DNA of 64,000 bases from Olsenella profusa (GTDB taxonomy: Bacteria > Actinomycetota > Coriobacteriia > Coriobacteriales > Atopobiaceae): contig NZ_JACSNQ010000008.1 in NCBI RefSeq assembly GCF_016900315.1, forward strand, positions 1 to 64,000, written 5' to 3'. Below, piece after piece: positions 7,095-60,527 of the stretch. Made by a program: the position numbers and the translations under genes. Under the pieces are notes generated by a model that saw nothing but the letters and a program-made list of their open reading frames with translations, did not search any database and had not been told where the DNA came from. Every line of letters begins with the position of its first letter. The stretch's first letter is position 1.

Positions 7095-8276
7095 TCATCG
7101 AACGGTAAAGATGTAGAGGGCCTCGCCCGCGTCGAAGTGGGCCTCGACGGCATAGCGCCAGCCGGGCTCGACGGTGAAGACGACGTCTCCGTTAACAATC
7201 TCGTGTTCGTTGGCGGTCCAGGCGTCGCCCTCGACGGCGTCGATTTCGACAGCCTGGGCCGACCCCGCCGCCTCTGCCGCCGTCTCGAGCTCGTCCTCGG
7301 GCCAGCGCACGATGCCGGCCGCCGTGCAGGGAACGTCAAAGCTCACGGTGACCTCGGTGGGCCCGCCCACGCGCGCGTCGGGCAGGTCGCTCGCCTCCAG
7401 TTGGACGGGGTGCGGCGCGTCCGCGACGACGGTCGCCATCTCGCCGTTCTCCTCGTAGCTCCAGGTGTAGCCGCACGTCTCGAGCATGACGGAGGTCGCG
7501 GCGAGCTCGGTTGCGTACTCGAGCGAGGCCAGCGGCGGCTCGGCCGGGTCCTTGGGCTGCCAGATCTGCGTGACCAGCTCGTCGTACTTCTCGGCGTCCG
7601 CGGGTGTGCCCTCCTCGATCACCTCGATATCCGTGATGCCCGGGTACTGCGCCGGATAGCTCTCCAGCATGATGCCGTTGCCGGTCACGCGCACGACGTT
7701 GCCGGCCGTGAGCTCGGGCGTACCCTCGGGCAGGGTGGGGTAGTAGGGGGTCTCGGTGCGCTGGTCCATAAAGAGGACCTGGCCATCGCCAAACGTGACC
7801 ACCATCGCGGTGGAGGTGAGCGCTTCATAGGCCGCGTCCGCAGGGGTCTCGAAGACGTAGCCCGCGTCCCCGCCGTCAAACTGCGCGAGTACGAGGTAGC
7901 GCCAGCCGGGCTCGACCTCAAAGGAGACGGCGCCGTCGGAGAGGGAGCACGTGACGTCCTCGCCGGCGGGGTCATCGGCGTAGCGGGTGACCGTGGCGTT
8001 CGTCGCTGGCTGCGAGAAGGACGCGCGCACCTCTGCCGCCGCAGAGACCTCGATGTCGGGCACCTCGTCGTCGGAGAGCTCAGCGGGCGCGACGGGGTCG
8101 CTGGCAACGCCGTCCCAGGTGTAGCCGTGCGTGAGCATGGCGGCATTGACCACGGCGGTTTCCGCCTCCAACCGGACGGTGCCGGTGGGCGGCTCCTCGT
8201 GCGCGCAGCCGGCGAGAAGAACGGCGAGCGCGCAGGCGCATAGGGCCCTGAATGGGTGCGGGACGTGGCTCTTCAT
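7095..8276 (-). CDS. Lipoprotein with two repeated domains, unknown function
   Basis: 393-residue secreted lipoprotein. The leader ends in LAVLLAGC, a clear lipobox, so the protein is anchored on the outer face of the membrane. The mature part is an internal duplication: each half has a segment like LTHGYTWDG / LETCGYTWSY, a block like VPDIEVSAAAEVRASF / LPDARVGGPTEVTVSF, and ends in GWRYLVLAQFDGGDAGYVF / GWRYAVEAHFDAGEALYIF. The pattern suggests two beta-rich modules in tandem. I do not recognise a named family. GGAGGG precedes ATG at 8276. It is monocistronic and convergent with nadE. Confidence 0.8.
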   Translation of the reverse strand: MKSHVPHPFRALCACALAVLLAGCAHEEPPTGTVRLEAETAVVNAAMLTHGYTWDGVASDPVAPAELSDDEVPDIEVSAAAEVRASFSQPATNATVTRYADDPAGEDVTCSLSDGAVSFEVEPGWRYLVLAQFDGGDAGYVFETPADAAYEALTSTAMVVTFGDGQVLFMDQRTETPYYPTLPEGTPELTAGNVVRVTGNGIMLESYPAQYPGITDIEVIEEGTPADAEKYDELVTQIWQPKDPAEPPLASLEYATELAATSVMLETCGYTWSYEENGEMATVVADAPHPVQLEASDLPDARVGGPTEVTVSFDVPCTAAGIVRWPEDELETAAEAAGSAQAVEIDAVEGDAWTANEHEIVNGDVVFTVEPGWRYAVEAHFDAGEALYIFTVR

Positions 8277-8520
8277 GGGTCTGCCCTCCGGGTCTTTGCC
8301 TCGTAGGGCACATCATACTAGAAGGGGTGGTGAGACGTGTTCTTCTCGTCTGCCTCTCAGGCCCTCAGAAAATCTAAGTGCGTCTTGGAAGATTTTTTTA
8401 CCTGTGGTGGTATAAGTCGACGCGTCTGGGTATGATTCTGAACGTTGGATAGCGCGGTGCCCACATGGCCGCACCGCAACACCGCGCCCGCGCGGGCGCC
8501 TCAGAAGGAGGTTCTTGAAC

Positions 8521-10675: not shown

Positions 10676-10859
10676 CCCAAGTGCGCCCTCTTGTCAGGTG
10701 CACTGCTCAAGTGCACCCGTCTGTAGACGAAAAGGGCCTTAAGTGCACCCAAATCGGCGATAAAGCAGTCAAGTGCACCGAGGGGCGGGTGCACTTGAGG
10801 AGTACACCTAGAGGGCGGGTGCACTTGACGGGTGCACCTGACAAGAGGGCGCACTTGGG
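10676..10859. repeat. Palindromic array of AAGTGCACCC / GGGTGCACTT boxes
   Basis: Eight ~11-bp boxes. Four read (C)AAGTGCACCC or a one-base variant (near 10679, 10709, 10741, 10771) and four are inverted, GGGTGCACTTG or variants (10787, 10817, 10830, 10848). The outermost boxes are part of a perfect 27-bp inverted repeat (10676-10702 / 10833-10859). The whole 184 bp is therefore one large palindrome of smaller palindromes. No convincing gene lies within. It sits between groEL and an XRE-family regulator gene, so operator function is possible. Confidence 0.75.
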
Positions 10860-15108: not shown

Positions 15109-15304
15109 GGGACCACTTCGATTCTGTCTGGGGCGGCTCCTGGAACAGCCCGTCCCTGCTCGCTGGCGGCGCCGCAACGTTCACGGGCGCGTGAATACCG
15201 ACATTGTACGTGGAGGGACGAGACGCGCAAGCGTGGGCGGTACGAAGACGCGGAACGAGGGCATGGCGGAGACGGGCGGGACCCTTGTCCCGTCCCTATG
15301 GCTC

Positions 15305-15348
15305 GCTTAAAGTCACGCTTCTGGCAAGAAAAACATGACTTTGAGCGA
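15305..15348 (+). repeat. Solitary AGTCACGC hairpin unit
   Basis: AAAGTCACGCTTCTGGCAAG followed by AAAAACATGACTTT forms an imperfect hairpin with flanking CTCGCTT / GAGCGA. It is clearly related to the six-unit 62-bp-period array at 59420-59761, so that family also occurs as a single copy here. Confidence 0.6.
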
Positions 15349-15433
15349 CTTCACCGACCTGCGCTACGACGTCAAGGGCGAGCTCTACGAGTTCTATCTC
15401 AAGGGAATGCTGGGAGGTAGCACCCATGCCTAG
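15335..15433 (+). pseudogene. Short open frame, probable C-terminal remnant of an unknown protein
   Basis: 32 codons: MTLSDFTDLRYDVKGELYEF continuing YLKGMLGGSTHA to TAG. The composition looks protein-like (acidic/aromatic helix), but the start lies inside a hairpin repeat unit, so it is more likely the tail of a lost gene than a real start. I do not recognise the family. A Shine-Dalgarno-like GGGAGGT near its end precedes an ATG at 15426, suggesting a second gene once followed. Confidence 0.35.
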
Positions 15434-44660: not shown

Positions 44661-44957
44661 GCGCACTGTTTTCGGACGGAAACACGTCCCGGACCGTCCT
44701 AAAACAGTGCGCCACCAGACCCGCGCACCGTCTCCGGACGGAAACACGTCCCGGACCGTCCTAAAACGGTGCGTCATCAGACCTACGCACCGTCTCCGGA
44801 CGAAACCATTCTCCAGAACGTCCGAAAACGGTACGCGGGAGCTGCGCACCGTTTTCGGTCGGAACCACATCCCAAACCGTCCTGGAACAGTACGCCGCAT
44901 GACCTACGCACCGTCTCCGGACGAAATCAGCCCTCAGACCGTCCGGAAACAGTGCGC
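44661..44957 (+). repeat. Tandem hairpin array, five units (family A)
   Basis: Five ~52-bp palindromic units at 44661-44712, 44723-44773, 44786-44836, 44844-44895 and 44907-44957, separated by 7-12 bp (period about 60). Each runs GCGCACCGTNTYCGGACGG ... CCGTCCNRAAACGGTGCGC or close. The middle is asymmetric (GGACGAAA...CAGACCGTCC in units 3 and 5), giving an orientation. It lies between convergent gltX and pcp and is bracketed by motif copies GTTCTTCTCGGC (44649) and GGCGAGAAGAAC (44984). Confidence 0.85.
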
Positions 44958-49550: not shown

Positions 49551-49653
49551 GTTCGGCGCGGGCGCGGCGGGCCTGAGGTTCTTCTCGCCGGGCGGGCCGT
49601 GTCGAGCTGCGACGTTTCACATCGGGCACGTCGTCCCACGTCGGGCACCGTCG

Positions 49654-49970
49654 GGCACCGTTTTCGGACGGTCTGTTGACTAGTTTCGTCCGGAAACAGT
49701 GCGCGGTCCGGAGGCCGCACTGTTGTTGGACGGTCTGGAGCCGAATTCCGTCCGCAGACGGTGCGCGACCTACGCGGCCGATCGTCAACACTGTTTCCGG
49801 ACGGTCTGCGTCCCAATTTCGACCGGAAACGGTACGTGACCTACGCGGCCGGCCGGGGGCACCGTTTTCGGACGGTCTGTGGCCCGATTCCGTCCAGAAA
49901 CGGTGCGCGGTCCGGAGGCCGCACTGTTGTTGGACGGTCTGGAGCCGGATTCCGTCCAGAAATGGTGCGC
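49654..49970 (-). repeat. Tandem hairpin array, five units (family A, inverted orientation)
   Basis: Five units at about 49654-49704, 49715-49766, 49786-49837, 49858-49908 and 49919-49970. Consensus CACCGTTTTCGGACGGTCTG ... TTCGTCCGGAAACRGTGCGC. By the asymmetric centre (GACGGTCTG ... TTCGTCC) they are the reverse complement of the 44661-44957 array. Units 2 and 5 are almost identical including the preceding GGTCCGGAGGC, so a local duplication occurred. It sits between convergent sdaA and the kinase-like gene, with GTTCTTCTCGCC at 49578-49589 beside it. Confidence 0.85.
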
Positions 49971-50022
49971 AGCCGCCCGCAGGCGGCGCGCAGCCAGGCA
50001 AGACGCAGCCCCAGGGCGCCCC

Positions 50023-54411: not shown

Positions 54412-54488
54412 TGGTAGCCCGTACCAGATTCGAACTGGTGATCTCCGCCTTGAGAGGGCGGCGTCCTGAACCGCTAGACGAACGGGCC
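54412..54488 (-). tRNA. tRNA-Glu (CTC), copy 2 in transcript order
   Basis: Cloverleaf readable on the minus strand: acceptor GGCCCGT/ACGGGCT, D arm CGTCTAGCGG, anticodon stem CCGCC/GGCGG with loop CTCTCAA (anticodon CTC, reads GAG), T loop TTCGAAT, CCA encoded. Identical to the next copy. Confidence 0.95.
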
Positions 54489-54491
54489 AAA

Positions 54492-54568
54492 TGGTAGCCC
54501 GTACCAGATTCGAACTGGTGATCTCCGCCTTGAGAGGGCGGCGTCCTGAACCGCTAGACGAACGGGCC
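54492..54568 (-). tRNA. tRNA-Glu (CTC), copy 1
   Basis: Same 77-nt sequence as the gene at 54412-54488 and only 3 nt apart from it, including encoded CCA and anticodon CTC. Recent tandem duplication or gene conversion keeps them identical. Confidence 0.95.
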
Positions 54569-54591
54569 ACATATGCGATTGAGTGGGCAAA

Positions 54592-57848: not shown

Positions 57849-59300
57849 ATGACCGACTACACCGCCGGCGCCATCGCGCCGGCAACCGCCGACGAGCTCA
57901 CCCGCTCCTTCTCGGCCGACCGCGCCAACCGCGTGGCGAGAAACGCCGTGACCTCGATGAACGTGCACGCCGCCGCGCGCAACGTCTCGACCCTGCGCAC
58001 CTACCACGACACCTTCGGTGTCTCCCGCGTGCGCACCGGCAAGGTCACCAACCAGCGCCACTCCGGCCGCTGCTGGATGTTCTCCGCCTTCAACGTGGCC
58101 CGCGCCGCCACGATGGACCTGCTCGACGTCGACGACTTCGAGTTCTCCCAGGTCTTCGGCTACTTCTACGACAAGCTCGAGAAGTTCAACGTGGGGCTTG
58201 AGTACGTCATCGAGACCGCCGCGCTGCCGATCGACTCGCGCGAGGTGGCGGGCCTGCTCGGCCACTGCATGGGTGACGGCAACTACTATCCCGCCGCGAT
58301 GAACATCATCCGCAAGTGGGGCCTCGTGCCCAAGGACGCCATGCCGGAGAACGCCTGCTCCAAGGACTCCGACCAGATGAACGCCCAGCTCCAGCGTCTC
58401 TTCCGCAAGAGCGCGATGGAGCTGCGCCACATGGCCGAGCGCGGCGCGGGCACCGACGAGCTGCGCGCCGCCAAGGAGGGCATGGTCGTCGACTGCCACC
58501 ACGTCCTGTCCGTGTGCCTCGGTGAGCCGCCGCTCACCATCGACGTGGAGATTCCGGTGGGCAAGAACTGCCGCATCGAGGCCACGCGCCTCGTGGAGCA
58601 GACCGGCGACGACCGCGCCGCCTGCGAGCAGGACGCGCCGCGCCGCCTGCTCGTGGACCGCGGCATCACCCCGCGCGAGTTCGCCGAGCGCTACGTGCCG
58701 TTCGACCCGTCCGACTACGTGCAGCTCGAGCACATCCCGGGCGCGAGCCGCCCGTTCGGCCACGTCTACCACCGTCGCTTCTCCGACACGATGGCCGGCG
58801 GCACGCCCGTGAAGTTCCTGAACGTGCCGTTCGAGGTGCTCGAGGACGCGGCCGTGGCGTCGCTCAAGGCCGGCGTGCCCTGCGAGATGGCCTGCGACGT
58901 GAGCCAGCAGTTCCCGCGCAAGATCGAGGACTTCCCCGGCGTGCTGGCCTGCGACACGATGGACTACGAGGGCCTCTTTGGCGTCGACCTCTCCATGAGC
59001 CGCGTGGACATGATCGACTCCCACGAGACGTGCAACACTCACGCCATGACCTTCCAAGGCGTGGAGCTCGGCGCCGACGGGCGGCCCGTGGCCTGGCGCA
59101 TCGAGAACAGCTGGGGCGAGGACAGCTGCAAGAACGGTTACCTCGTGGCCAGCGCCGACTGGTACCGCACCTACGGCGGCGAGGTCGTGGTAAGGCGCGA
59201 GTTCGTGCCGGCCGAGTACCTCGAGCTCTGGGACAACGCCGAGGTCGAGGAGGTCGACCCCTGGACCGAGGTGGGCGCCGCCCTGGCCCCGCGCGACTAG
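57849..59300 (+). CDS. pepC2: Aminopeptidase C (C1B family), divergent copy 2
   Basis: 483-residue paralogue. Catalytic Cys75 is in NQRHSGRCWMFSAFNVARAA, His in ETCNTHAMTFQGVELGADGR, Asn in AWRIENSWGEDSCKNGYLVA. It has an insertion around GKNCRIEATRLVEQTGDDRA and an altered C-terminus (VDPWTEVGAALAPRD), which in this family lies in the active site and sets exo/endo activity, so its specificity may differ from copy 1. AAGGAGG precedes the ATG. Confidence 0.93.
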   Translation: MTDYTAGAIAPATADELTRSFSADRANRVARNAVTSMNVHAAARNVSTLRTYHDTFGVSRVRTGKVTNQRHSGRCWMFSAFNVARAATMDLLDVDDFEFSQVFGYFYDKLEKFNVGLEYVIETAALPIDSREVAGLLGHCMGDGNYYPAAMNIIRKWGLVPKDAMPENACSKDSDQMNAQLQRLFRKSAMELRHMAERGAGTDELRAAKEGMVVDCHHVLSVCLGEPPLTIDVEIPVGKNCRIEATRLVEQTGDDRAACEQDAPRRLLVDRGITPREFAERYVPFDPSDYVQLEHIPGASRPFGHVYHRRFSDTMAGGTPVKFLNVPFEVLEDAAVASLKAGVPCEMACDVSQQFPRKIEDFPGVLACDTMDYEGLFGVDLSMSRVDMIDSHETCNTHAMTFQGVELGADGRPVAWRIENSWGEDSCKNGYLVASADWYRTYGGEVVVRREFVPAEYLELWDNAEVEEVDPWTEVGAALAPRD

Positions 59301-59328: not shown

Positions 59329-59368
59329 GGCGGCCGCCGCGCTTCACCTACGCGGCGGCCGCCTTTTT
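59329..59368 (+). terminator. pepC operon terminator
   Basis: Perfect 13-bp stem GGCGGCCGCCGCG (59329-59341) / CGCGGCGGCCGCC (59351-59363), 9-nt loop, then TTTTT. 29 nt after the second pepC stop. Confidence 0.92.
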
Positions 59369-59419
59369 GTGCCCCGCCCTCGGAGCGCCGGCTGGCGGGC
59401 GACACGTTCTTCTCGCCAG

Positions 59420-59761
59420 AAGTCACGCTTTGCTGGTTCAAAACGTGACTTCGGGCGAGCTGAGACGTCATGGCTCGTCTGAAGTCACGCTCTTCTCGTC
59501 TAAAACGTGATTTTGAACGAGGTTGCTTCCTGCGGCTCGCTCGAAGTCACACTCCTCCGGTTCAAAATGTGACTATGAGCGAGGTGAGGTGGTATGACTC
59601 GTCTGAAGTCACGCTTTTTCGGCTCAAGGCGTGACAAAGCGCGAGCTGGTTCCTCGCAGCTCACTCGAAGTCACGCTTTTTCGGCTCAAGGCGTGACAAA
59701 GCGCGAGCTGGCTCCTCGCAGCTCACTCGAAGTCACGTTCTTTCGGCTCAAGGCGTGACTT
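59420..59761. repeat. Six-unit hairpin array with exact 62-bp period (family B)
   Basis: Units begin at 59420, 59482, 59544, 59606, 59668 and 59730, every step exactly 62 bp. Each holds a ~32-bp hairpin AAGTCACGCTTTTTCGGCTC / AAGGCGTGACTT (variants in units 1-3). The linkers keep CTCGTCTG or CTCACTCG before and GCGAGC after. Units 4-6 are nearly identical, so amplification went on recently. It lies between convergent pepC2 and yigZ; GTTCTTCTCGCC precedes it at 59406-59417. A solitary relative is at 15305-15348. Confidence 0.9.
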
Positions 59762-59774
59762 CGGGCGAGCCGAG

Positions 59775-59855: not shown

Positions 59856-60527
59856 CTAGAACTCCGCGAAGCGCGGCTCTCCGGCGCGCGCGAGCTCCTC
59901 GCCCGCCGCGAGCTCGCGGACCGCCGCCAGAAACGGCCCCTCGTCGCCGGCGCGAAACACGCAGCTCAGCTGCACGTCCTCCGCAAAGAGCGCGTCGGCC
60001 ACCTTGCCGCCCGCGTCTAGGCACATCCGACGAATCCGCTCGTAGAGCGCGTAGGGCAGCTGCACCGTCACCGGCACCACGAGCGTCATCTCGACGACGG
60101 AGCCCTCCCACTGGGCCGCCGCCACCGCCTCCTGGGCCGCGGCGGTGTAGGCGCGCACGAGCCCGCCCGGCCCGAGGAGCGTGCCGCCGAAGTAGCGCGT
60201 CACCACGCAGCAGACGTCGGCCAGCCCCGCGCCGCGCAGGACCTCGAGCACCGGCATCCCGGAGGTGCGGCTGGGCTCGCCGTCGTCGGAGCAGCGCTCG
60301 CGGCCGTCGGCAAGGATCCAGGCGGGGACGTTGTGGCGTGCGTCATGGTGGCACGCACGAACGGCGGCAAGAAACGCCTCGGCCTCCGCCTCGCTCCCCA
60401 CGTGCGCGAGCTGCGCGATGAAGCGGCTACGCCGGTCCTCGAACTCGCCGGCGACCTCGACGCCCGCGCGCAGCGTGAGGTAGGAGCCCTGCGCGCCCCT
60501 GTCGGCGGGGGCGGTTGCACCCGTCAT
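59856..60527 (-). CDS. yigZ: YigZ/IMPACT family protein
   Basis: 223-residue protein: EFEDRRSRFIAQLAHVGSEA, HHDARHNVPAWILADGRERC, SDDGEPSRTSGMPVLEVLRG and VVTRYFGGTLLGPGGLVRAY are the UPF0029 N-terminal (IMPACT) motifs, followed by a ferredoxin-like C-terminal domain. Molecular function is unsettled (translation-related in eukaryote relatives). Its ATG overlaps the stop of the PTS gene (ATGA). Confidence 0.9.
   Translation of the reverse strand: MTGATAPADRGAQGSYLTLRAGVEVAGEFEDRRSRFIAQLAHVGSEAEAEAFLAAVRACHHDARHNVPAWILADGRERCSDDGEPSRTSGMPVLEVLRGAGLADVCCVVTRYFGGTLLGPGGLVRAYTAAAQEAVAAAQWEGSVVEMTLVVPVTVQLPYALYERIRRMCLDAGGKVADALFAEDVQLSCVFRAGDEGPFLAAVRELAAGEELARAGEPRFAEF

Follow-up and report, generated by a model that had tools for sequence, protein, structure and literature searches.

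In the BIME arrays of E. coli, units that are themselves hairpin-forming palindromes alternate in orientation and are separated by two alternating gap lengths. The REP/REPIN sequences associated with RAYT proteins in Pseudomonas and E. coli are species-specific inverted pairs found beside one gene, and form ordered tandem arrays in some genomes (PMC3116915). The operator bound by the AbiEi homologue Rv2827c has four inverted repeats of 23 bp; with gaps of 13 and 4, these make up a 63-bp repeat (23+13+23+4) (PMC7319586). Here we describe intergenic arrays of inverted sites with a 62-bp period in a 64,000-nucleotide stretch of DNA from the gut bacterium Olsenella profusa (the window). We suggest, with a probability of roughly 0.7, that the array first noticed there represents the cognate DNA sites of an undescribed two-component system, consisting of a protein and dispersed arrays.

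Geometry, conservation and spread of the arrays

The array (59412-59769, no strand assigned) comprises six 48-bp units starting at 59412, 59474, 59536, 59598, 59660 and 59722, with a start-to-start distance of exactly 62 bp in five of five intervals. Each unit holds two inverted half-sites (CTCG-N6-GTCACG, a 16-bp inner gap, then the inverse half-site) and is followed by a 14-bp linker; the half-site consensus of this family 1 was drawn from 85 units. The original prediction had recognised all six repeats and their exact period, its unit starts falling on AAGTCACG inside each 48-bp unit, and the lone relative it placed at 15305 is a solo unit at 15302-15349 (no strand assigned) with two core mismatches. 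The pattern AGTCACG-N{6,24}-CGTGACT has two exact matches in the window against 0.01 expected. A cysteine-peptidase-like gene lies to the left (57849-59300, + strand) and a YigZ-like gene to the right (59856-60520, - strand, 5' end approximate), both identified by eye; between the upstream gene and the array is a separate terminator-like inverted repeat followed by a run of T (59329-59363, + strand). The predicted position between convergent genes is therefore correct at this locus but does not extend to a rule: across the genome, co-oriented genes flank 18 of 22 arrays or solo units (home-made gene calls), on which ground a general link to convergent genes was rejected.

A second family, with the half-site GCAC-N6-CGGACG, matches family 1 in geometry despite its different half-site, and has two arrays within the window (neither assigned a strand), one at 44663-44955 with a 16-16-16-14 layout and a period of 62, the other, less regular, at 49640-49975 with periods of about 62-71. 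The genome of the window (G000; 2.07 Mb, 56 contigs) contains about 90 family-1 units in about 20 arrays (87 at no more than 3 mismatches, compared with 0 in the control). In the stretches of this genome that were read, 61 of 70 neighbours are spaced by 62 and 85 of 92 units have an inner gap of 16.

The units had at first been taken for hairpins, which is right only in a formal sense, as pairing of the arms is a result of the consensus shared by both half-sites. The half-site cores hardly vary among 84 distinct family-1 units, and most positions of the spacers are free to change; variable positions of the arms do not covary, showing no excess of complementary pairs, with several pairs below chance. 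Across six orthologous units of G000 and its close relative G022, cores differ at 3 of 120 positions and inner spacers plus linkers at 33 of 180, while in 57 adjacent units compared the cores differ by 4.6% and the spacers by 43-59%. Spacers free in sequence and fixed in length are the pattern expected of double-stranded protein sites held at a fixed phase, not of hairpins, in line with the earlier proposal that the geometry matters. Read from their sequence, family-1 units are best regarded as inverted pairs of independent half-sites of ~16-20 bp, not as base-paired hairpins.

Within the bacterial family searched, units at no more than 1 mismatch number 77 in G000, 46 in Olsenella An290 (G002), 41 in Atopobiaceae MAG BRZ_HB bin53 (G022), 4 in G029 and 2 in G014; the distribution is limited to these five genomes, a single match in G138 looking like chance. 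Absence from all related genomes, which the original prediction had named as fatal to it, is thus not what was found: two further species of the genus carry the unit in abundance and another two hold a few copies, a patchy occurrence in 5 of 31 species. An exact scan of 84,980 species' genomes, from which the window's own genome was possibly left out, found the unit in Olsenella An290, in the MAG BRZ_HB bin53 and in an uncultured Olsenella, with single matches elsewhere that look like chance. The statement that no described family was known agrees with an Rfam search at the window array and with searches of phage, plasmid and viral collections for the repeat, none of which gave a match; the latter led us to reject a phage or plasmid origin. 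Terminal repeats of insertion sequences were also rejected, given that ~480 kb of genome contained, outside arrays, a single isolated half-site with a moderate score and two that were weak.

Several other elements were seen in the window and its relatives. The motif GTTCTTCTCGCC occurs 11 times in the window (1530, 8211, 11006, 13571, 42582, 43011, 44984, 49578, 50818, 56319 and 59406) against 0 expected by shuffling, and is found at the edges and in the spacers of arrays as well as in some terminators; its complement GGCGAGAAGAAC is present genome-wide at 121 intergenic positions versus 38 in genes. It is possibly an uptake-signal-like or regulatory motif. An intergenic element with ends like GGGTGCACTTGACG and AGGTGCACCC lies at 10772-10839 of the window, as well as near 2933 and 5366 of locus L115, where the copies carry GTTCTTCTCGCC in the middle. 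Tandem GTACGTACCC-type repeats are found near 12100 of L115 and at about 7750-8470 of locus L162, where they occupy the site at which G022 has a family-1 array. The window also contains two identical tandem tRNA genes in 80-bp units (54412-54569) and the Corio-PBP sRNA (Rfam RF02945, 1561-1648).

A protein family among its own sites

Outside the window, two family-1 arrays of G000 lie 1.3 kb apart, and the sole recognisable gene between them encodes P0003 (contig C23:1044-2093). The homologous gene of Olsenella An290 likewise sits between two family-1 arrays, and that of G022 has a family-1 array on its 3' side, while a P0003 paralogue in G000 (C6:12875-13969, 42% identity) is located between family-2 arrays. 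That the same sites flank a gene of an undescribed family, whose many relatives are each surrounded by sites with a spelling of their own, points to a two-part genetic system that had gone unrecognised.

We compared the flanks of 70 homologue loci, in which half-site spelling varies by lineage. The 5' and 3' flanks share an 18-mer at 17 or more of 18 positions in 49 of 70 loci, compared with 26 of 840 mismatched pairs, with the limit that related genomes among the 70 loci are not independent; by group, sharing was seen in 35 of 54 loci of the genus and 14 of 16 from other genera. Some of the 21 loci lacking such an 18-mer show one-sided presence. Dyads were detected in 44 of 70 3' flanks, as opposed to 0-1 of 70 gene-body windows and 0 of 68 regions far downstream. 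Across different half-sites, same-strand repeat distances peak at 61 and 62, and a small group at 70-73 corresponds to about one helical turn more.

Three genomes with an at least 70% identical gene hold 77, 46 and 41 family-1 units, and all others hold no more than 4. Units of the GTGCGG family number 63, 42 and 24 in three genomes with the gene among similar repeats and no more than 2 in others, and those of the CCTCCC family 26, 8 and 7 in genomes with the gene and 0 in the other 27. The exception is G014, with 9 CCTCCC-family units, more than two of the gene-bearing genomes, and no homologue; such orphan arrays would be leftovers or transfers. By these counts, copy number follows the cognate gene in three families, with this one exception. 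Further to that, a plasmid collection searched at the protein level yielded Collinsella aerofaciens WP_148332043.1 (34% identity), whose gene is flanked on both sides by GTCTCGATCTGTAAC dyads with a wider period of about 81; this repeat occurs at 18 places in the same record and is absent from every other of 72,556 records. The gene-array pattern recurs independently in Collinsella aerofaciens, and we consider the pairing of gene and arrays well supported at the sequence level.

Proteins of the P0003 family (~350 aa) combine an AbiEi-like N-half with a PD-(D/E)XK-like C-half (E..D..ExDG..K motif). Of 140 genomes from the host's bacterial family, 92 have homologues, with up to seven matches per genome; homologues also occur in other families of Coriobacteriales and, remotely, in some other Actinomycetota. 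PADLOC AbiEi profiles matched 19 of 25 members at E <= 0.1 (best 9e-12), the match covering the N-half only and being weak for P0003 itself. Residues E215, D249, E263, D265 and K269 are kept in 69-70 of 70 homologues, a motif from which the C-half can be read as a PD-(D/E)XK-type, nuclease-like domain. No Pfam or NCBIfam family was found (25 members in the Pfam search), E. coli Vsr gave no profile match to the family, the PDB returned no sequence relative, and a predicted structure model of a family protein was of no use (pLDDT 39). dN/dS ranged from 0.10 to 0.30, dS being close to saturation where pairs are more distant.

A candidate two-part system and its rivals

We suggest that one component of the system would be the ~350-aa protein, with its AbiEi-like and PD-(D/E)XK-like halves, and the other the dispersed arrays of ~20-bp half-sites, set in alternating orientation every ~31 bp, or three helical turns. 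We infer that at each half-site the protein is bound to one face of the DNA and that its C-half nicks or cleaves, so that repair or recombination drives turnover and spread of units; arrays would then be multiplied in trans, in a way resembling that proposed for REPINs and RAYT proteins. P0003 would be the partner of family-1 arrays such as 59412-59769, and the paralogue at C6:12875-13969 that of the family-2 arrays of the window. More tentatively, at somewhat less than even odds, these pairs may form a class of self-spreading two-part elements in Coriobacteriales, in which an AbiEi-like nuclease multiplies its own site arrays in trans and specificity diversifies by lineage into many orthogonal protein-site pairs on one helical scaffold.

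Array sites are shared between species while the units turn over, and at two of them another species has family 1 where G000 has family 2; the expectation that arrays change by whole units was borne out. Between the gene pair that flanks the window array, G017 has a P0003-family homologue flanked left and right by arrays of its own, G019 and G006 hold related array sequence with no family gene seen there, and G022 is empty. No insertion footprint was recovered at this site: by eye, no alignment could be made between the G000 and G022 intergenic sequences, and hence no target duplication can be read. The sharing of sites, together with the conserved cores of orthologous units, the fixed helical phasing and the operator-binding repressor function of AbiEi and Rv2827c (PMC7319586), would fit a chromosomal factor whose binding to arrays organises DNA, or insulates or regulates neighbouring genes, with arrays kept by host selection and the C-half being no mobiliser. 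We regard this as unlikely, as a site that bears an array can be entirely empty in G022, family 1 is patchy within the genus, the nuclease-like motif is kept, and the genes next to arrays form no regulon, an idea rejected for that reason.

IS200-like Y1 transposase genes are found in most genomes of the genus, with up to 6 matches (L080-L107). Most of five Y1 loci examined lie between their own inverted repeats, and several hold GGGACAGG or similar; in G012, a CRISPR-looking array with a 61-bp period lies near a Y1 transposase gene (L081, 2135-3357). The presence of Y1 transposases in 28 of 40 genomes searched raises the alternative that the repeats are mobilised by something else, such as these RAYT-type enzymes, the P0003 gene merely occupying a repeat-rich spot. 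This is very improbable: the half-site was not found beside Y1 transposases, most of the five loci having their own hairpins, and the flanks of each homologue sharing that homologue's half-site would go unexplained. A RAYT as the partner was rejected, the PF01797 genes of these genomes having no half-site nearby. Least probable of all are hairpins formed by RNA or single-stranded DNA (terminators, sRNA or structural elements); the palindromic arms and intergenic position speak for them, but they are opposed by the absence of compensatory pairing in the 84 distinct units, the separate terminator-like repeat preceding the window array and the lack of an Rfam match.

If true, the two-component reading would amount to a REP-like system whose protein family is unrelated and as yet unnamed, and would provide numerous natural pairs of protein and DNA specificity that share a recurring geometry of sites. 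Under it, how the species-specific intergenic repeats of gut Coriobacteria arose becomes a testable question, and WP_148332043.1 of Collinsella aerofaciens provides a named protein from a named gut species.

Comparison with described systems

The ~61-bp period resembles that of type I-E CRISPR arrays; unlike these, the present loci are many short arrays with no constant direct repeat set between unique spacers, and a CRISPR reading was rejected as the conserved elements are inverted half-sites. BIMEs share the alternating inverted units and two alternating gap lengths, but differ in sequence, in partner proteins and in being built of hairpin-forming palindromes.

The AbiEi-like N-half recalls the operators of AbiE type IV toxin-antitoxin systems (AbiEi, Rv2827c), with their 23-bp inverted repeats, and the 63-bp repeat of the Rv2827c operator would explain the array geometry, giving an independent reason to expect such spacing. 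Unlike in AbiE, the gene has arrays to either side and others stand at ~20 places elsewhere in the genome, the protein has an extra nuclease-like C-half, and no toxin gene was identified beside the gene in the loci read (no second gene, as for an AbiEii-type toxin, was recognised by reading between the arrays of G000, An290 and G022).

The partner protein differs from RAYT in not being Y1/HUH by sequence (PF01797 was unmatched in 25 members), the half-site differs from REP in having no hairpin constraint and no covariation at variable positions, and the 61-62 period recurs across unrelated half-sites. As in REP/RAYT, dispersed intergenic inverted pairs have a species-specific sequence, each family is clustered beside one gene, and that gene is tied to cognate repeats dispersed genome-wide. 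Most likely, the arrays and their gene form a REP/RAYT-like two-component system with an unrelated protein.
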